A stretch of 64,000 nucleotides of DNA from Acidimicrobiaceae bacterium (lineage in GTDB: Bacteria > Actinomycetota > Acidimicrobiia > Acidimicrobiales > Aldehydirespiratoraceae), in the NCBI GenBank assembly GCA_009843915.1, contig VYCM01000001.1:1-64000 (forward strand), read 5' to 3'. Each line of letters begins with the position of its first letter. Position 1 is the first letter of the stretch. A program made the translations under genes and the position numbers. Positions 2,399 through 46,043 of the stretch are shown here, in pieces. The notes under the pieces were generated by a model that was not told the origin of the DNA, did no database searches, and saw nothing but the letters and a program-made list of their open reading frames with translations.

Positions 2399-3493
2399 GT
2401 GCGAGCAAACCCGATCGCGCCGATGCTGGTGCTGCTGATCGTCGTGGCGCTCGCAGCCGTGGCGTGCTCGGTGGATCAGCCTGCAGGCATGGCCGCCGCC
2501 GACGCGGTGGATCCCACGGCCGACGGCGACCTGCTCCGAACGGTGCGGGAGCGCGGCCGGCTGGTGTGCGGCGTGTCAGGCACCAGGGTGATCTTCTCGG
2601 AGACCCGGCCCGACGGCAGCGTGGTCGGGGTCGATGCCGACTACTGCCGCGTCGTCGCGGCGGCGGTGTTCGGCGACGCCGAGGCGGTGGAGTTCGTGTC
2701 GCTCACCACGGGGGAGCGCTTCACGGCCCTCCACACCGGTGTCATCGACGTGCTCATTCGCAGCACCACTTGGACCCAGAGCCGCGATACGGAGCTGGGC
2801 CTGGACTTCGGACCGGTGATCTACTACGACGGCCAGCAGCTCATGGCCCGGGCGGGTGACGGCTTCACGCCGACCTCGGGTGTGGCCGACATCGCCGGGG
2901 CGGTGGTGTGCGCCCTGGCCGGGACGACGACTGAGCAGAACGTCTCCGACGCAGCCGACGCCGCCGGGATCGACATCACCGTCACGACCTTCGAGGACTT
3001 CGACCAGATCACGGAGAACTTCATTCAGGGAGCATGCGACGTGGTCACCGCCGACGGCTCTGCGCTGGCCGGGCGCAAGGCCAAGCAGCAGCCCGACGAC
3101 CAGGAGTGGGTCATCTTCCCGGCCACCCCGATCTCCAAGGAGCCGTTGGCCCCGGTGTACCCGCAGAACCAATCCCGCTTCGGCGACGTTGTGAACTGGG
3201 CGGTGTACGCCACGATCATTGCCGACGAGAAGGGCATCACCCAGGCCAACGTCGACGCCATGGCGGCCGACCCGCCCGACGCCGAGACAGCCAGGCTGCT
3301 GGGCGCCTCCGACGACGAGCAGCAGTCGAACATGGGTCTGGCCCCCGACGCCTTCCGTCAGGCCATCTCCCAGGTGGGCAACTACGGCGAGATCCTCGGC
3401 CGGCACCTGGAGCCGGCCGGCCTCACCCGGGCCGGTTCGATCAATGCGAGTTGGCGCGACGGTGGCCTGATCTACGCCCCGCCGGCCCGCTGA
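2399..3493 (+). CDS. Amino-acid ABC transporter binding protein, copy 1 (AapJ-like)
   Basis: A periplasmic-type solute receptor of the general L-amino-acid (AapJ) class. The mature protein has the GDLLRTVRERGRLVCGVSG opening and conserved DADYCR, TTWTQSRD and YYDGQQLMAR segments. A short hydrophobic leader ends in AVAC, a weak lipobox, so a lipoprotein anchor is likely but not certain. The start is taken as GTG 2399, 12 bases after the arc stop; ATG 2423 is an alternative and neither has a clear Shine-Dalgarno. It is a close tandem paralogue (I estimate about 75% identity by eye) of the next gene, sharing the C-terminus LIYAPPAR. It is probably co-transcribed with arc. Permease and ATPase genes follow the second copy. 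Confidence 0.85.
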   Translation: MRANPIAPMLVLLIVVALAAVACSVDQPAGMAAADAVDPTADGDLLRTVRERGRLVCGVSGTRVIFSETRPDGSVVGVDADYCRVVAAAVFGDAEAVEFVSLTTGERFTALHTGVIDVLIRSTTWTQSRDTELGLDFGPVIYYDGQQLMARAGDGFTPTSGVADIAGAVVCALAGTTTEQNVSDAADAAGIDITVTTFEDFDQITENFIQGACDVVTADGSALAGRKAKQQPDDQEWVIFPATPISKEPLAPVYPQNQSRFGDVVNWAVYATIIADEKGITQANVDAMAADPPDAETARLLGASDDEQQSNMGLAPDAFRQAISQVGNYGEILGRHLEPAGLTRAGSINASWRDGGLIYAPPAR

Positions 3494-3610: not shown

Positions 3611-4777
3611 GTGACCAAGAACAAAGCACTGCTATGGCGCGCGCTTGCCGTGCTGTTTGCTGTGACCTTGATCGCCGCGTCATGCGGTGACGACGATGAA
3701 GACGCCGAGGTAACGGCGCCCAGTGAGACGGCGGCCCCGGCTACCGGCGATGACGAGCCTGACGCGCCCACCACGACAGTGGAGGACGTCGTCGACGACA
3801 CCCAGGACGGGGACCTGCTCGACACGGTCCTGGCCCGCGGCGAACTGAACTGCGGCGTTTCCGGTTCGGCGGTGGCGTTCTCGGAGACCCAGCCCGACGG
3901 CTCCCAGACCGGCTTCGACGCCGACTACTGCCGAGCGGTGGCCGCGGCGCTGTTCGGCGACGCCGAAGCGGTCGTCTTCACCCCTCTGACCGCGGCTGAG
4001 CGGTTCACCGCGGTGCAGACGGGCGAGGTGGACGTGCTGATGCGCAACACCACCTGGACCCAGAGCCGTGACACCGAGGTGGGCATGGACTTCGGTCCCA
4101 CCACCTACTACGACGGCCAGCAGCTCATGGCCCGCGAGGGCGACGGCTTCTCAGGCGGTTCGCAGGTGGCCGACATCGCCGGCGCGGTGGTGTGCACCAA
4201 TGCGGGCACCACGACCGAGCAGAACGTCGCCGACGCCGCCGAGGCAGCCGGGATCGAAATCGAACTCACCACCTTCGAGGACTTCGACCAGGTGACCGAG
4301 AACTTCATCAACGACGCCTGCGACGTGATCACCACCGACGGCTCGGCCCTCGTGGGTCGCAAGGCCAACCAGCAGCCCGCCGGCGAGAACTGGGTGATCT
4401 TCCCGGCCACGCCGATCTCCAAGGAGCCCCTCGGCCCGACCTACGGGCAGAACCAGTCCCGCTTCGCGGACGTGGTGAACTGGACTGTGTACGCCACGGT
4501 CATCGCCGATGAGAAGGGCATCAACTCGGGCAACGTGGCCGACATGGCGGCCAACCCGCCCGACGCTGAGGCGGCCCGCCTGCTGGGCGCAGCCGACGAC
4601 GAGCAGCAGTCGAACATGGGCCTGGCCCCTGACGCCTTCTACCAGGTGATCGCTCAGGTCGGGAACTACGACGAGATCTACTCCCGCCACCTGAACCCGG
4701 TCGGCCTGACCCGCGAGGGCTCGGCCAACGCCGGCTGGCTCGACGGAGGTCTGATCTACGCGCCACCGGCACGGTAG
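3611..4777 (+). CDS. Amino-acid ABC transporter binding protein, copy 2 (AapJ-like)
   Basis: The second tandem solute receptor of the AapJ class (388 residues). The GTG at 3611 is chosen because GGAGGGA ends about 4 nt upstream; an in-frame extension to 3518 lacks such a site. The leader has a positively charged start, a hydrophobic core and LIAASC, followed by an acidic, Thr/Pro-rich tether (GDDDEDAE onward) typical of a lipoprotein linker. The body closely follows copy 1, including DADYCRAVAAALFGDAEAV and TTWTQSRDTE. It has its own promoter and is followed by a strong hairpin before the permease genes, a layout that would make binding protein in excess of membrane components. Substrates within the amino acids cannot be told from sequence. 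Confidence 0.88.
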   Translation: MTKNKALLWRALAVLFAVTLIAASCGDDDEDAEVTAPSETAAPATGDDEPDAPTTTVEDVVDDTQDGDLLDTVLARGELNCGVSGSAVAFSETQPDGSQTGFDADYCRAVAAALFGDAEAVVFTPLTAAERFTAVQTGEVDVLMRNTTWTQSRDTEVGMDFGPTTYYDGQQLMAREGDGFSGGSQVADIAGAVVCTNAGTTTEQNVADAAEAAGIEIELTTFEDFDQVTENFINDACDVITTDGSALVGRKANQQPAGENWVIFPATPISKEPLGPTYGQNQSRFADVVNWTVYATVIADEKGINSGNVADMAANPPDAEAARLLGAADDEQQSNMGLAPDAFYQVIAQVGNYDEIYSRHLNPVGLTREGSANAGWLDGGLIYAPPAR

Positions 4778-30694: not shown

Positions 30695-31357
30695 GTGAGG
30701 ATTTCCCGTTCGGGCACCGACGCCGCAGTGGGACCCCTCCAGGGCGACCTCTTCGCTCAGGGGCCGCCCGCCCTCGACCCGGCGGCATCCGTCGAGCGGC
30801 TCCATCTGGACGACCGCAGTTGGATCGATGTGTCGTCGCGATGGCTGCGCGGCGGCGACGAGCTGCTGGAGCTGCTGGTGGCCCGCCTGCGCTGGACACG
30901 AGCTGAGCGTCCCATGTACGGGCGGATGGTCGACGAGCCCCGGCTGGGCGCGTTCGTCCGGCCCGGTGCGCCGGGCGCCCCACTGTTGCTCGACGACCTG
31001 GCGGGCGCGCTGCAGGCTCGCTACCGGGTCGGATTCAACTCGGTGTGGGTCAACTACTACCGCGGAGGCGACGACTCGGTGGCCTGGCACAGCGACCGCA
31101 TCGGGATCGACCCCGCCGACGCCGTGGTGGCCATCGTCTCGCTGGGAGGACCGCGCCGGTTCCGGCTGCGCCCTGCAGGCGGCGGGCCCAGCCGGTCATT
31201 CACCCTGGCATCCGGAGACCTGCTGGTGATGGGCGGTGCCTGCCAGCAGAACTGGGAGCACTCGGTGCCCAAGGTCGCGGCCGCGCCGCCCCGCATGAGC
31301 GTGACCTTCCGCCACACCCGCTCTCAACCCCGTTCTGTGAGCAGATATGCCGCCTGA
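30695..31357 (+). CDS. AlkB-like 2OG-Fe(II) dioxygenase (DNA alkylation repair)
   Basis: A predicted iron and 2-oxoglutarate-dependent dioxygenase that removes alkyl groups from damaged bases. The 220-residue protein has VGFNSVWVNYYRGGDDSVAWHSDRIG (iron ligands His and Asp in HSD), the third ligand His in NWEHSVPK, and the 2-oxoglutarate arginine in PPRMSVTFRH. GTG 30695 is used, just behind a -10 box and an SOS-type operator, which fits a DNA-repair role and damage induction. The last eight codons (SVSRYAA and stop) lie inside a palindromic repeat, so the original C-terminus was probably replaced. Confidence 0.9.
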   Translation: MRISRSGTDAAVGPLQGDLFAQGPPALDPAASVERLHLDDRSWIDVSSRWLRGGDELLELLVARLRWTRAERPMYGRMVDEPRLGAFVRPGAPGAPLLLDDLAGALQARYRVGFNSVWVNYYRGGDDSVAWHSDRIGIDPADAVVAIVSLGGPRRFRLRPAGGGPSRSFTLASGDLLVMGGACQQNWEHSVPKVAAAPPRMSVTFRHTRSQPRSVSRYAA

Positions 31358-31379
31358 GTCGGCTTCATTGCGCACAAGA
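31333..31379 (+). repeat. REP-like palindromic element, copy 1
   Basis: An imperfect palindrome with core GCCGCC-TGA-GTCGGC and conserved outer part TTCTGTGAGCAGATATG. It differs from copy 2 at two bases in the first 42. It overlaps the 3' end of the alkB-like gene and supplies its stop codon. Confidence 0.85.
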
Positions 31380-31392
31380 CTCGGCCGCGGAC

Positions 31393-31439
31393 TTCTGTGA
31401 GCAGATATGCCGCCTGAGGCGGCTTCGTTGCGCACAGAA
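31393..31439 (+). repeat. REP-like palindromic element, copy 2
   Basis: The most symmetrical copy: 22-nt arms around TGA with 17 of 22 positions complementary, outer ends TTCTGTG and CACAGAA, inner stem GCCGCC/GGCGGC. It starts exactly 60 bp after copy 1, in the same orientation, next to the 3' end of the AbiEi/DUF559 gene. Confidence 0.88.
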
Positions 31440-31454
31440 CTGGGTGGTGGCCGG

Positions 31455-32369
31455 CTATGCGGCCGCCTGAGCCTTGGCGACGACGGCGCAGAGCTCCCCG
31501 GATCGGTCGGCGTAGTCCTCCCAGGTGAAGTTGAGCACGTCCCAGCCGGCGGCCTGCAGCTGGTTGCGCCGCCTGCGGTCGCCGACGAAGGACTCGCGGT
31601 TGTGGTGCCAGCGGACGCTGTCGAGCTCGATGGCGAGGCGCCGTCTCGGGTAGGCCAGGTCCACTTGGGCGAGGAAGCGGCCCGCGGCGTCGTGCACGCG
31701 GTACTCCAGTGCCGGGCGATCCAGTCCCGACCTGACCAGCAGGTTGCTCACCCAGCGGCTCCAGTCGCTGAGCGGCACGGGACCGTCGCCGCATTGGTCG
31801 TCCAGGACGGCTCGCAGCAGGGTCAAGCCGTCCCGTCCCTGGCGGGAGTGCGACACCACCACCTCGTAGAGATCCTCGTAAGTCAGCCTTCTGTCCCGGA
31901 GCACGCAGTCGAGTGCGCTCTCGAGCTGCTGACGACTCACCACGCTGGCGAGATCTAGCAGGGTGCGGGCCAACCCGGTGCACGGGATGCGCTCCCGGGG
32001 GACCGGCTTCGCGAGGTCCATCTGGGTCGACCGGTGGAGCCGCACGCCGGATGCCGACCGTCCCCTCCCCCGTGCCACCACGATCTCGGGTCGCACCAGC
32101 CTGAAGCCGTCGATGCCGTGGAGGGCTGCGGCCGCTCGATGGCTGGCGAGCCCGCCGTGGGCTATGCAGGCTGCGAGCAGCCGTGAGTGCGGGGTCACCG
32201 GCACGGCCGAGTCGTGGTACACGCCGGGAGCCGGGGCGCGCCATCGCTTCGTGTCCAGCTGGCGCTGGATCTGGTGCCTGGTCATGCCGGCGTCGAATGC
32301 CTGGGTGCGGGAGATCAGCCCGTACTGCGTACGACAGTGAGACGAGATCAGCGCGTGATCGACCTTCAT
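31455..32369 (-). CDS. AbiEi-type N-terminal domain with DUF559 endonuclease-like domain
   Basis: A 304-residue protein of the type often annotated as type IV toxin-antitoxin AbiEi with a DUF559 domain. The N-terminus (YGLISRTQAFDAGMTRHQIQRQL then YHDSAVP) matches the AbiEi winged-helix region. The C-terminus (VDLAYPRRRLAIELDS, RRRRNQLQAAGWDVLNFTWEDY) matches DUF559, a Vsr/restriction-endonuclease-like fold with the expected acidic ELD and basic residues. No AbiEii-like toxin is adjacent, so a working toxin-antitoxin pair is not supported. The gene lies between REP-like copies 2 and 3 and its promoter is AT-rich, both consistent with horizontal acquisition. ATG 32369 has no Shine-Dalgarno. 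Confidence 0.75.
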   Translation of the reverse strand: MKVDHALISSHCRTQYGLISRTQAFDAGMTRHQIQRQLDTKRWRAPAPGVYHDSAVPVTPHSRLLAACIAHGGLASHRAAAALHGIDGFRLVRPEIVVARGRGRSASGVRLHRSTQMDLAKPVPRERIPCTGLARTLLDLASVVSRQQLESALDCVLRDRRLTYEDLYEVVVSHSRQGRDGLTLLRAVLDDQCGDGPVPLSDWSRWVSNLLVRSGLDRPALEYRVHDAAGRFLAQVDLAYPRRRLAIELDSVRWHHNRESFVGDRRRRNQLQAAGWDVLNFTWEDYADRSGELCAVVAKAQAAA

Positions 32370-32379
32370 AAAGCAATGA

Positions 32380-32409
32380 AATATATTGGAAATAGATGTT
32401 ATATCGCAA
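32380..32409 (-). promoter_or_regulatory. Promoter of the AbiEi/DUF559 gene
   Basis: On the minus strand TTGCGA (32409-32404), an 18-nt spacer and TATATT (32385-32380). The 40 bp before the gene are strikingly AT-rich for this genome. Confidence 0.5.
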
Positions 32410-32417
32410 CCGCTGGT

Positions 32418-32459
32418 TTCTGTGAGCAGATATGCCGCCTGAGGCGGCTTCGTTGCGCA
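32418..32459 (+). repeat. REP-like palindromic element, copy 3
   Basis: Identical to copy 2 over 42 bp, in the same orientation, 1,025 bp further on. The right outer arm has decayed (AAATTT instead of CAGAA). It lies between the AbiEi/DUF559 gene and the divergent SDR gene. Confidence 0.88.
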
Positions 32460-32477
32460 AATTTCGGGGGTGGGGGT

Positions 32478-32483
32478 TAGCAT
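32478..32483 (+). promoter_or_regulatory. Putative -10 box TAGCAT for the SDR gene
   Basis: TAGCAT predicts a start near 32490 and a leader of about 19 nt carrying GGGAGG (32497-32502) before ATG 32509. Confidence 0.35.
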
Positions 32484-32508
32484 CCGCGGCCGGCGCGGGA
32501 GGATGTCA

Positions 32509-33258
32509 ATGGGACGGTTCGACGGCAAGGTGGCTCTCATCACCGGAGCGGCCTCCGGCATGGGGCGAGCGGTGGCGATCCGCCTGGCCTCGGAGGGTGC
32601 GGCCGTATTCGGGGTGGACGTCAACGACGAGGGCCTGGCCGAGACCGCCTCGGAGGTCGCCGCCGCGGGCGGCCGGATGGAGACGCAGCACTGCGACCTG
32701 GGTTCCGTAGCCGACTGCAAGCAGGCAGCGGCCGGCTGTGTAGACGCTCTCGGGCGCATAGACGTGCTGGGCAACATCGCCGGCCTCTCGTGGCAGGACC
32801 GGGTGGAGGACATCACCGAGGAGATCTGGGACCGGATGTTCGGCGTGAACGTGAAAGGAATGTTCTTCCTGACCCAGGCCGCGCTCCCCCACCTGCTGGC
32901 CTCCGGCGGCAGCATCGTCAACATCGCCTCCAACGCCGGGCTCCAGGGACTGGCCTACACCACCCACTACTGCGCCACCAAGGGCGCGGTGGTGCAGTTG
33001 ACCAGGGCCTTGGCCATGGAGCTGGCCAAGACCGACGTGCGGGTCAACGCCATCGCCCCCGGCGGGGTGGACACCCCCATGACCCAGAACTTCAAGATGG
33101 TCACCGACCCCGACCGGCACTTCATCCGCCGCATGATGGCCTTCAAGCCGATGAGCGGGCCCGAGCACATCGCCGCGCTGTTCGCCTTCGTGGCCTCCGA
33201 CGACTGCCCCGGCATCCACGGCGCCGTCCTCAGCGTCGACGGAGGCCTCACCAGCTAG
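32509..33258 (+). CDS. Short-chain dehydrogenase/reductase
   Basis: A classical NAD(P)-dependent oxidoreductase (249 residues). The Rossmann motif is TGAASGMG (near residue 13), NIAGLS replaces the usual NNAG, the catalytic Ser is in SIVNIASNAG, and Tyr/Lys are in HYCATKGA. Substrate is unknown; steroid- or alcohol-type substrates are common in this class. ATG 32509 is preferred over ATG 32503 because GGGAGG then has proper spacing (6 nt). It converges with the flavin reductase-like gene. Confidence 0.88.
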   Translation: MGRFDGKVALITGAASGMGRAVAIRLASEGAAVFGVDVNDEGLAETASEVAAAGGRMETQHCDLGSVADCKQAAAGCVDALGRIDVLGNIAGLSWQDRVEDITEEIWDRMFGVNVKGMFFLTQAALPHLLASGGSIVNIASNAGLQGLAYTTHYCATKGAVVQLTRALAMELAKTDVRVNAIAPGGVDTPMTQNFKMVTDPDRHFIRRMMAFKPMSGPEHIAALFAFVASDDCPGIHGAVLSVDGGLTS

Positions 33259-33290
33259 CTGGGCACTCGACCTTCCCGGTCCGGCAACCT

Positions 33291-42414: not shown

Positions 42415-43455
42415 TCATCCCCGCAGTCCCGCCAGCTCGAGCAGCCACCGCCGGTACTCCAGCAGCGCGAGGTCGGCCCCCTTGACGAACATCTCCTCCG
42501 GCAGCCTGATCGGCACCTGGCAGGGCATCTGCGACTCCACGATGGGGCGGTCCTGGTCGGTGACCAGCTGCGCGAAGGCCATGAACTCCTCGCCGTGGTC
42601 GAGCCCGTAGTTGCGGCCCTGGTAGGTGAAGCACCGGGTCCGGTGGGGGCCGACGGGCGCCAGGCACACCCACAGCACGTAGTCCTCGTGTTCGCCGGCG
42701 CTGCTGTTGAGCTGCATCGCGTTCGGCACGAACACTCGGTAGCGCTTGATGGCGCCGAAGATGGGCTCGCCGCCGGAGTCCGCGGTGGGGGCATTCTTGA
42801 CGTTGTCGGTGAACTCCGGGAACGGCCCGGCCACGAACCTCAGCTCGCCCCCGACCCGCTCCACGTCGTAGTCGTCGACCCGGGGCTGGTTGCTGTCCCC
42901 GAGCAGCCCGTCGTGCACCCACGGGAAATGGGAGAAGTCGAAGTAGTTCTCCAGTCGGCGGGCCATCGAGCAGTCCCACTCGTAGATGTCGAGATGCAGG
43001 AACTGGTAGCTCGGGTCGTCGAACATCGGGACCGACGGCGGCGGGTAAATGGGGTCTCCCAGGCAGGTGTACACCAGCCCGCTGACCTCGCAGGTGGGGT
43101 AGCTGCGCAGCTTCACGTTGACGTGCTGCGAAAGCTCCTCCCGTGCCGGGATCCGGGCCACCGCGCCGGTGGCGTCGTAGGTCCAGCCGTGGTACGGGCA
43201 GCGCAGGCAGTCGTCGACCACCACGCCAAGGGACAGCGCGGTCCCCTTGTGCAGGCACTGGTCGTCGAACACCACGGGCTCGCCGCCGAGGCGCACCACC
43301 ACCATCTTCTTGCCGTACAGCACGAAGCCCTGCGGGGTGTCGGTCAGCTCGTCGGAGTAGGCCACCGGGTACCAGAACTTGTCCCGCATGGCCTCGTACA
43401 GCTTGTCCTCGGTCTCGGCGCTTACGTAGTCGATCCGGTCGTCCAGCTGGGTCAT
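42415..43455 (-). CDS. Rieske non-haem iron oxygenase, alpha subunit (1)
   Basis: An aromatic ring-hydroxylating or O/N-demethylating oxygenase (346 residues, VanA/NdmA-size class). The Rieske 2Fe-2S site is C67-x-H69 and C86-x2-H89 (CLH and CPYH); the mononuclear iron site is NYFDFSHFPWVHD, with His176 and His181. The C-terminal half is the catalytic domain. It resembles the Rieske protein at 44958-46043 (both have NVKN and a PNAM-LNSSAG region). ATG 43455 has GGAAGGGAAA upstream. Electrons must come from a separate reductase, not visible nearby. Confidence 0.92.
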   Translation of the reverse strand: MTQLDDRIDYVSAETEDKLYEAMRDKFWYPVAYSDELTDTPQGFVLYGKKMVVVRLGGEPVVFDDQCLHKGTALSLGVVVDDCLRCPYHGWTYDATGAVARIPAREELSQHVNVKLRSYPTCEVSGLVYTCLGDPIYPPPSVPMFDDPSYQFLHLDIYEWDCSMARRLENYFDFSHFPWVHDGLLGDSNQPRVDDYDVERVGGELRFVAGPFPEFTDNVKNAPTADSGGEPIFGAIKRYRVFVPNAMQLNSSAGEHEDYVLWVCLAPVGPHRTRCFTYQGRNYGLDHGEEFMAFAQLVTDQDRPIVESQMPCQVPIRLPEEMFVKGADLALLEYRRWLLELAGLRG

Positions 43456-43487
43456 CGGACGTTTCCCTTCCTGCTTCGAGATGAGCC

Positions 43488-44525
43488 TCAGCCCGCCCGC
43501 TGTCCGGCTGCCTGGCGGGCGGCGTCGGGGCCCCTGGCGATCTCGCGCAGCCAGCGGCGGTACTCGATGGCGACCCGGTCGACCCCGGCGATCTGGAGCT
43601 CGGCGCTCAGGTCGACGGGCAGCTCCTCGGGGCGCTGGGACTCGACGAAGGCGAGGTCCTGGCCGATGACCAGCGCGTTGAAGTCGAGCATCTCGGTGTC
43701 GGTGGCCTCTTCGAAGGCGTAGTCGCGGCCCATGAACGTGAAGCACCGGCAGCTCCTGCGGCCGGTGGGGCACACGCTGAAGAACAGCAGGTAGCGCTGG
43801 TCGACCGACTCGATGTACTGGTCGAGCAGGATGGTGTTGGGCATGAACAGCCGGTAGTCGAGCTTGACCTCGACGGCGCCGGTGATCTCGAGGCTCCTGT
43901 TCTTGCCCGAGTCGGGGGGTTCGGCCATGTGGGGGTGCTCGAAGCGCAGCTCGTTGCGATGCCGTCCGATGGAGTGGTCGGGGACCTCGGGGTGGGCCGA
44001 GTCGCCCAGCACGCCGTCGTGGACCCAGGCGAAGTGGCCGAAGTCCACGTAGTTCTCGATGCGGCGGGGCAGCGCGCACCTCCAGTCGTAGGGTTCGACC
44101 TCGACGTGGCGGAACGACTCGTCGCCGAAGTAGGGGTTCTCCGGCAGCGGGTAGACGGGGTCGCCGGTGAGGCACACCCAGATCAGCCCCAGGTGCTCGG
44201 CGGCCCGATACGCCGTGAGGCGGGCCCGCGACGGGATCTTCACGTCGGGCCGGGCGGGAATCCTGGTGCAGCGGCCCTCGCCGTTGTAGGTCCAGCCGTG
44301 GTAGCCGCAGCGCAGGCCCTCCTCGCTGACCGAGCCGAGTGACAGGGCGGTGCCGCGGTGCACGCAGATGTCCCGGAAGGCCGACACCTGGCCGTCGATG
44401 CGGGCCAGCACCAGGGGCTCGTCCAGCAGGGTCACCGCCAGAGGTCCACCGCCGGCCAGCTCGGACGCGTAGGCCACCGGGTGCCAGAAGCCCCGCAGCG
44501 CCTCGTACAGGCCGTCCTCGCTCAC
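43488..44525 (-). CDS. Rieske non-haem iron oxygenase, alpha subunit (2)
   Basis: A second Rieske oxygenase of 345 residues. Cluster ligands are C54-x-H56 and C73-x2-H76 (CVH and CGYH), and the iron site is NYVDFGHFAWVHD, with His164 and His169. It diverges from copies 1 and 3 in the catalytic domain (MPNTILLDQYIES in place of PNAM-LNSSAG), so its substrate probably differs. The GTG start overlaps the stop of the GroES-family gene (GTGA), so the two are translationally coupled. 32 nt after its stop the next Rieske gene begins. Confidence 0.92.
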   Translation of the reverse strand: MSEDGLYEALRGFWHPVAYASELAGGGPLAVTLLDEPLVLARIDGQVSAFRDICVHRGTALSLGSVSEEGLRCGYHGWTYNGEGRCTRIPARPDVKIPSRARLTAYRAAEHLGLIWVCLTGDPVYPLPENPYFGDESFRHVEVEPYDWRCALPRRIENYVDFGHFAWVHDGVLGDSAHPEVPDHSIGRHRNELRFEHPHMAEPPDSGKNRSLEITGAVEVKLDYRLFMPNTILLDQYIESVDQRYLLFFSVCPTGRRSCRCFTFMGRDYAFEEATDTEMLDFNALVIGQDLAFVESQRPEELPVDLSAELQIAGVDRVAIEYRRWLREIARGPDAARQAAGQRAG

Positions 44526-44905
44526 AGGTACAAGCCGGTGCTGCCCTTGTCGAGGCGCTCGGCGGCCACCGCGTGGATGTCGCGCTCGCGCAGGATGATG
44601 TAGTCGCGGCCCCTGACCTCTACCTCGTAGCGGTCCTCGGGGTTGAACAGCACCCGGTCGCCCTTCTCCATGTTGCGGACGTTGGGGCCGACCGCCACCA
44701 CCTCGGCCCAGGTGAGGCGCTTGCCCACCTGGGCGGTGGCCGGGATGAGGATGCCGCCGGTCGAGCGGCGCTCGCCCTCGGCCTCGCCCACGGCCACCAG
44801 GATCCGGTCGTTGAGCATCTTGACCGGTAGACGGTCGTCGTCGTGAGGGCCGGGGGCGGAATTGTTGCGGGACACAGTGTCAGCCCGGGGCTCGGTCGTG
44901 GTCAC
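44522..44905 (-). CDS. GroES-family chaperonin-like protein
   Basis: A 127-residue relative of the GroES co-chaperonin. The core shows LNDRILVAVGEAEGERRSTGGILIPATA (with the mobile-loop position) and WAEVVAVGPNVRNMEKGDRVLFNPEDRYEVEV, as in GroES, then an extension ending in STGLYL. I recall similar STGLYL proteins as a conserved second GroES-type protein in actinobacteria; their function is unknown. GTG 44905 follows TACCGT by 8 nt; TTG 44914 is an alternative. It is coupled by GTGA to a Rieske oxygenase gene, so it may assist folding or assembly of that enzyme. No GroEL gene is adjacent. Confidence 0.85.
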   Translation of the reverse strand: MTTTEPRADTVSRNNSAPGPHDDDRLPVKMLNDRILVAVGEAEGERRSTGGILIPATAQVGKRLTWAEVVAVGPNVRNMEKGDRVLFNPEDRYEVEVRGRDYIILRERDIHAVAAERLDKGSTGLYL

Positions 44906-44913
44906 GGATCCCA

Positions 44914-44919
44914 ACGGTA
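44914..44919 (-). promoter_or_regulatory. -10 box TACCGT before the GroES-family gene
   Basis: TACCGT on the minus strand ends 8 nt before GTG 44905. Confidence 0.4.
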
Positions 44920-44957
44920 CCCGCCCGCAGGGCTGGAGCCGCGAGGCGAGTTGAACG

Positions 44958-46043
44958 TCAAGCGGTCGGGGCGAGCTCGATCTCGCCGTCAGCGATGCTT
45001 ATGAGCCAGCGCCGGTACTCCACGGTGCCCGCGTCGGCTCCCTTGACGTGCATCTCGGCGGTCAGATCCACCGGCAGCTCCTCAGGCCGCTGCGACTCGA
45101 CGATGGGTTGGTCCTGGCCCAGGATCACGTACTGCATGTCGTGGAACTCCTGGTCGCGGTCCAGCGCGTAGTTCCGGCCCACGAAAGTGAAGCACCGGGT
45201 CCGGCGCCGGTTGACCGGCGCGACGGCGACGTACAGCACGAAGTCCTCGGTCACCCCGGCCGAGCTGTTGAGCTTCATGGCGTTGGGCATGTACACCCGG
45301 TAGCGCTTCCATGCCTCGTAGGTGAGGCCGTCGTGCTCGACCGCCGAGTTCTTGACGTTGTCGGTGTACTCGATGAACGGGCCTGCGGTGATCCGGAGCT
45401 CGGAGCCGTGCCGCTGCACGTCGTAGTCGGCGATCTCGGGCTCGTCGCGGTCGCCGAGGATGCCGTGGTGCACGTGGGCGAAGTGGGAGAAGTCGAAGTA
45501 GTTCTCCAGACGCCGGGCCACCGAGCAGTCCCACTCGTAGGGGTCGAAGCGCAGGAAGTGGTAGCTGGGGTCGTCGAGTTCGGGGCACTCCGATGGACCG
45601 AACCGCGGCGTCTCGCCCGAGACGCAGGTCCACACCAGGCCGCCGGCCTCGATCGTCGGGTAGGTCGGCAGTTGGGCTGTCAGCTTGCCGTTCAGCTCCG
45701 GCCTCGCCGGGATGTCAACGACGGTGCCGTCGGCGTCGTAGGCCCAGCCGTGGTAGGCGCAGCGCAGCCAGCAGCCGTCGATCCGGCCCAGCGACAGGGC
45801 CGAGCCGCGGTGGCGGCAGATGTCGCTGAAGACGTGGGCCTTCCCGTCGAGACGGGCCACGGCCAGACGGGTGTCGAACAGCGTGACTTGGTGGGGCGAG
45901 TCGGTGAGGTCGTCCGAGAAGGCCACCGGCTGCCAGAAGCGCTTGAGCTGCTGGTAGAGCCGCTCCTCGCCGGCCATGTCGAGCTGGGTGTTGCCCTGAA
46001 CCTCGAATCCTTCGGTCGCGGCGGGCTCTTGGGTGATGGTCAT
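44958..46043 (-). CDS. Rieske non-haem iron oxygenase, alpha subunit (3)
   Basis: A third Rieske oxygenase (361 residues). Cluster ligands are C76-x-H78 and C95-x2-H98 (CRH and CAYH); the iron site is NYFDFSHFAHVHHG, with His187 and His192. It is the closest relative of copy 1. ATG 46043 overlaps the stop of the adjacent small ferredoxin (ATGA), which makes that ferredoxin a good candidate electron donor. It is the last gene of a run that also includes the three molybdenum hydroxylase subunit genes. Confidence 0.92.
   Translation of the reverse strand: MTITQEPAATEGFEVQGNTQLDMAGEERLYQQLKRFWQPVAFSDDLTDSPHQVTLFDTRLAVARLDGKAHVFSDICRHRGSALSLGRIDGCWLRCAYHGWAYDADGTVVDIPARPELNGKLTAQLPTYPTIEAGGLVWTCVSGETPRFGPSECPELDDPSYHFLRFDPYEWDCSVARRLENYFDFSHFAHVHHGILGDRDEPEIADYDVQRHGSELRITAGPFIEYTDNVKNSAVEHDGLTYEAWKRYRVYMPNAMKLNSSAGVTEDFVLYVAVAPVNRRRTRCFTFVGRNYALDRDQEFHDMQYVILGQDQPIVESQRPEELPVDLTAEMHVKGADAGTVEYRRWLISIADGEIELAPTA

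Follow-up and report, generated by a model that had tools for sequence, protein, structure and literature searches.

Among described systems, the closest to the locus reported here is that of REP sequences and RAYT proteins (Y1/HUH; PMC2817692, PMC3733652), in which short intergenic palindromes are scattered near stop codons and form tandem clusters, two copies bracket one gene, enzyme and repeat type change together, and families are species-specific. REP superfamilies have been defined by a GTAG or CGTC tag, and many bacterial palindromic repeats, CGTC REPs among them, have no known mobilising enzyme (PMC3733652). Our locus shares all of these REP/RAYT traits, but its partner is a predicted AbiEi-PD-(D/E)XK (Vsr-fold) protein and not a HUH tyrosine enzyme. 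Its element has no GTAG/CGTC tag and carries two-sided outer arms at a fixed overall length of 47, 49-50 or 52 bp, its copies number about 10-25 instead of hundreds, and its flanking copies may be direct or inverted. A second relative is the AbiE type IV toxin-antitoxin system (PMC7319586, PMC3985639), whose AbiEi protein binds a 49-bp operator, a pair of 23-bp inverted repeats separated by 3 bp (PMC7319586). The N-terminal part of our protein matches AbiEi and the palindrome has the size of the AbiEi operator, whereas here a nuclease is fused, no gene for an AbiEii-type toxin (nucleotidyltransferase) occurs among the window genes adjoining the nuclease gene, and the palindrome also lies 3' of the gene and at scattered places. 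Vsr-fold homing endonucleases, represented by the mobile intron protein 3r3p, are related by profile to the C-terminal nuclease domain. Unlike them, our gene is associated with no intron or intein and, rather than interrupting its presumed site, lies between two copies of it, which is at most suggestive of a homing endonuclease. VsrA of Caulobacter, a Vsr-like nuclease, likewise has a DUF559 PD-(D/E)XK domain, although the available part of that paper reports neither an AbiEi part nor a palindrome association (PMC12907096).

The window, the whole stretch of DNA analysed, comprises 64,000 nucleotides of an Acidimicrobiaceae MAG (G000; 3.24 Mb, 88% complete) and contains the following features.

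31333..31379, + strand: 47-bp palindromic element, copy 1, with right arm CACAAGA and an inner-stem mismatch
31380..31392, no strand: 13-bp spacer of the tandem dimer, which has a 60-bp period
31393..31439, + strand: copy 2 of the 47-bp palindrome, complete and 15 bp beyond the nuclease stop codon
31455..32369, - strand: gene for a 304-aa predicted AbiEi-type winged-helix / DUF559-MTES_1575 (Vsr-fold PD-(D/E)XK) nuclease, assigned by profile matches
32418..32464, + strand: copy 3 of the 47-bp palindrome, with a degenerate right arm, 48 bp ahead of the start codon of the nuclease gene

An earlier sequence-only reading had described three repeats in the same orientation, two of them 60 bp apart and the third about 1 kb away, with a shared 42-bp core. 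These features are borne out: the copies begin at 31333, 31393 and 32418 on the + strand (start-to-start distances of 60 and 1025 bp), and over the 42 bp copy 3 matches copy 2 exactly, with two differences in copy 1. The reading as a whole is confirmed only in part, since the full unit is not the 42-bp core but a 47-bp imperfect palindrome (consensus TTCTGTGAGCAGATATGCCGCCTGAGGCGGCTTCGTTGCGCACAGAA) present in three direct copies. The outer arms TTCTGTG/CACAGAA ascribed to every copy are both found only in copy 2, whereas copy 1 ends in CACAAGA and the right arm of copy 3 reads CAAATTT; similarly, the inner GCCGCC-TGA-GGCGGC hairpin has one stem mismatch in copy 1 (GTCGGC). The upstream 2OG-Fe(II) oxygenase gene ends on a TGA stop codon supplied by copy 1. 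When up to three mismatches were allowed, a 26-base core pattern matched three times in the window and never in 100 shuffles, and an Rfam covariance-model search of the element gave no match up to an E value of 1. Elsewhere in the window, positions 2522-3486 and 3806-4770 are tandem paralogous stretches (79% identity over 969 bp), and 42443-45831 holds clustered related repeated coding stretches (74-78% identity).

The sequence-only reading had missed the gene that lies between copies 2 and 3, flanked in the window by genes for the (AlkB-like) 2OG-Fe(II) oxygenase and a short-chain dehydrogenase (SDR). The first ~170 residues of its 304-aa product match AbiEi antitoxins, with a PADLOC profile E value of 4e-20 for the window protein and values down to 3e-32 overall; the Pfam AbiEi_4 match is weak or absent in the window protein and above cut-off in several relatives. 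The C-terminus matches DUF559/MTES_1575 Vsr-type nucleases, of which MTES_1575 has been described as having the Vsr REase fold (PMC3710099). Against Pfam, the window protein fell slightly below the cut-offs in one search and at the DUF559 cut-off in another. A profile built from 24 relatives matched the endonuclease-like structure 3hrl (3e-6) and the mobile-intron protein 3r3p (0.0014), and of the conserved acidic residues D237 is invariant and E248 and D250 are conserved in at least 90%. By these profile matches, the protein is an AbiEi-type winged-helix part fused to a predicted PD-(D/E)XK nuclease of the Vsr fold. An AlphaFold model built from only two sequences (pLDDT 37.5) was discarded. 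We also dropped the notion of a single DUF559 mobile unit: Pfam gave one gene in G000, and a protein search gave one to five paralogues per genus genome. Open-licence PMC papers yielded nothing relevant on DUF559 together with palindromes, transposable elements or AbiEi.

The element is not confined to the window, and the result that the sequence-only reading had named as telling against dispersal, an absence of further copies, was thus not obtained. G000 contains 13 copies and sister species up to 24, and at least one copy is present in eight of the 16 genus genomes. Numbers are highest in the three genomes with the bracketed nuclease gene (13, 22 and 24), against 13 (G008), 4, 3, 1, 1 and 0 in the remainder. 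The copies could be grouped into ~38 distinct sites, ~20 of them common to more than one species. In a public collection, the contigs with matches belong to Acidimicrobiaceae MAGs. The palindromes matched in G024, G064 and G055 look unrelated, and a Planctomycetaceae match (L057) is compatible with chance for the pattern used. Dimers with a 59-60-bp period recur, and that of the window is polymorphic: G010 has a dimer at the orthologous place, G015 a monomer. As a short palindrome in many intergenic copies at 3' ends, with dimers, the element is REP-like in a loose sense. This likeness is what would speak for a RAYT-mobilised REP of the classical kind, the association that the earlier reading had proposed to check. 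Nevertheless, none of the 16 genus genomes, G000 included, contains Y1_Tnp (PF01797), whereas the same search was positive in control genomes, and neither the GTAG nor the CGTC end tag occurs in the flanks of any copy; we regard a RAYT origin as highly improbable. Thus the dispersed, intergenic and spreading nature of the element stands, and its proposed partner does not. A better candidate partner is the AbiEi-DUF559 gene, because the same kind of palindrome brackets it in unrelated families.

Flank queries were used to locate orthologous places in the genus, and several sites proved to be empty in relatives. This supports the previous suggestion that the element is possibly mobilised and indicates that it spreads. 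In alignments, the site C20:13001 of G010 is occupied, and the corresponding place is empty in G000, G006, G013, G004, G007, G001 and G015. An entire dimer present in G015 is missing at the orthologous place from G010, G000, G013 and G004. Insertion seems the simplest reading of these occupied and empty sites, with loss possible site by site and junctions blurred. Clean target-site duplications sought at the empty sites were not found, the intergenic DNA having diverged. In G008, the window locus lacks 30729-33260 altogether and retains one element. Gene gain or loss is often seen next to element sites. In G008 (L143, 2609-3210), a short gene pair encoding AbrB-type antitoxin-like and PemK/MazF-type toxin-like proteins is inserted directly beside an element and is missing at that place in G010 and G015. 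In G000 (C96; L109, 664-2555), an insertion of 1.9 kb, which carries a small HTH gene together with an MmgE/PrpD-like gene, lies directly beside an element and is missing in G015.

With gene boundaries taken from ORFs and an ad hoc codon-usage gene caller, the genus sites show a strong bias towards gene 3' ends, and most elements lie within ~30 bp of a stop codon. This position, together with the stable fold of the complete copy (z-score of copy 2, -5.3; copies 1 and 3 fold far worse), might be expected if the palindromes acted as RNA hairpins or terminators comparable to 3'-UTR REPs, with nuclease genes as incidental neighbours. The T-run that should follow a terminator hairpin is absent, however, and orientation relative to genes is about even (~24 co-directional sites, ~12 in each orientation, besides 10 convergent ones and 2 divergent). 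Stem covariation within the genus does not exceed that of shuffles, albeit this is expected of recent copies. Moreover, a role in RNA would leave unexplained both the recurrent bracketing of nuclease genes and the fixed length with interchangeable interiors, and we consider it improbable.

That bracketing is not peculiar to the window. A spacing of 1025 around the AbiEi-DUF559 gene is found in G000, G010 and G015, and bracketed genes in other families have spacings of 1018 (G172), 996 (G325) and 1020 (G436), where 47-bp elements have the same TTCTGTG/CACAGAA arms with different interiors. Furthermore, an AbiEi-DUF559 gene lies within a pair of 49-bp palindromes in G131 (spacing 1029) and within a TGCGTGAG-variant pair in G111 (spacing 991), and in G179 the element is found on one side of the gene only, at the contig start. 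G436 also shows the dimer-gene-monomer layout of the window. An entire 315-kb contig of G325 carries five elements and a single AbiEi-DUF559 gene, which lies between two of them. The 3' element lies -19 to +42 bp from the stop codon and the 5' element 15-57 bp before the start, some starts being approximate. The analysis draws on incomplete MAGs, with loci outside the genus sampled in part; in the sampled loci of G280 (10 tag matches), G161, G214, G303, G304 and G362, a bracketed gene was not found. Thus, the same kind of palindrome repeatedly brackets the same type of gene in distantly related bacteria, which suggests a previously undescribed repeat-plus-nuclease partnership that may resemble REP/RAYT with an unrelated enzyme.

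Across 395 Acidimicrobiia genomes, TTCTGTGNG...CNCACAGAA at an overall length of 45-51 bp was found in 14, with up to 14 copies each, and the reversed control was positive in one. Among the matches listed, almost all are exactly 47 bp, and interiors vary between genomes. When the arm positions used in the search were left out, 35 such elements showed 73 doubly changed cells, compared with 38.9 +/- 4.7 after shuffling (none of 500 shuffles reached 73) and at most 41 in slid controls. Palindrome symmetry is therefore maintained class-wide through paired changes. A related TTCCGTGAGC...GCTCACGGAA palindrome forms a four-copy tandem array with a 52-bp period in G425 (C48; L244, 2260-2460).

Paralogues of the nuclease gene within the genus are without the TTCTGTG element, and some are bracketed by other palindromes instead, namely AATCTCGG (49-50 bp), CGAAATTG (52 bp) and a CTATA type. 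Seven of 21 paralogues reached a flank similarity score of at least 25, as against 28 of 1460 random intervals (1.9%), most of which are tandem paralogous genes; in about ten genus paralogues a flanking repeat was undetectable. In G009, further AATCTCGG and CTATA repeats are present in another part of the genome, a 400-kb stretch that has no AbiEi-DUF559 gene. One orthologous locus holds five AATCTCGG and three CGAAATTG genes, which indicates that palindrome and protein changed together in place and were not gained independently. On the nuclease tree, palindrome type requires three changes, the minimum for four types, and none of 5000 label shuffles reached three; the nuclease of G002, flanked by a CGAAATTG palindrome, falls in the CGAAATTG clade. 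Nuclease clade thus tracks palindrome type. In G012 (L211, ~1325-1380 and 2390-2450), another direct repeat, CTTCTGTCAG...GGTTGTTCGGCC, flanks an AbiEi-DUF559 gene. In G003 (L213, 3749) and G002 (L216, 3644), 52-bp palindromes of the CGAAATTGATGC...GCATCAATTTCG type are found ~1.2-1.3 kb past the nuclease locus that they share.

Tracking of this kind bears on the possibility that some other transposase moves the palindrome in trans as a miniature element and that the AbiEi-DUF559 gene rides along as a passenger. Copies do occur in genomes without a bracketed orthologue, as in G008 with its 13, and our transposase search covered Y1_Tnp only. Against this, the gene enclosed by the pairs found 0.9-1.1 kb apart was always of the AbiEi-DUF559 family, and palindrome type follows nuclease clade; such an origin seems to us improbable as well.

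We somewhat favour the reading in which the AbiEi-nuclease has the palindrome as its cognate site and disperses it, with binding, cutting and mobilisation all inferred. The element lengths of 47, 49-50 and 52 bp are close to the 49 bp of the AbiEi operator and the symmetry is alike, from which the AbiEi part would recognise the palindrome and the Vsr-fold part would nick or cut it, driving copying. Two protein copies may bind the two half-sites, each through its winged-helix part, and this dimer binding would explain the fixed overall length and the conserved outer arms. After a nick or cut at the palindrome by the Vsr-fold domain, repair or strand transfer could copy the small element to new places, singly or as a tandem dimer, and insertions would survive chiefly where they fall shortly after a stop codon. 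A nuclease gene flanked by two elements would then form an autonomous unit, of which the single elements scattered elsewhere would be non-autonomous copies. Such an arrangement would operate as RAYT and REP do, although the enzyme is unrelated. Of these steps, recognition appears better supported than mobilisation, which is the weaker one.

The same operator match could also mean that the palindromes are nothing but AbiEi-type autoregulatory sites kept at the ends of nuclease genes, the scattered copies serving as a regulon or binding reservoir and not being products of the nuclease. Besides the equal size and symmetry (PMC7319586), the nuclease-gene start is in every case preceded, at 15-57 bp, by an element. 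Yet an element is also present at the 3' end of the gene, insertions appear at new sites, and the scattered copies, placed just past stop codons with only two divergent sites, are not promoter-like; we consider a purely regulatory role unlikely.

Taken as a dispersing site of the nuclease, the palindrome points to a broader proposal, which we put forward tentatively and hold to be a little less probable than not: AbiEi-Vsr-fold nucleases may constitute a non-HUH class of mobile repeats in which the protein recognises and spreads its own fixed-length operator palindrome and the two diverge in step, a repressor-operator pair having thereby turned selfish. If AbiEi-Vsr nucleases do mobilise palindromes, a second, unrelated enzyme chemistry would spread dispersed palindromes in bacteria. 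DUF559/AbiEi fusion genes, currently annotated as domains of unknown function or antitoxins, would then gain a concrete and easily tested substrate, the adjoining palindrome.
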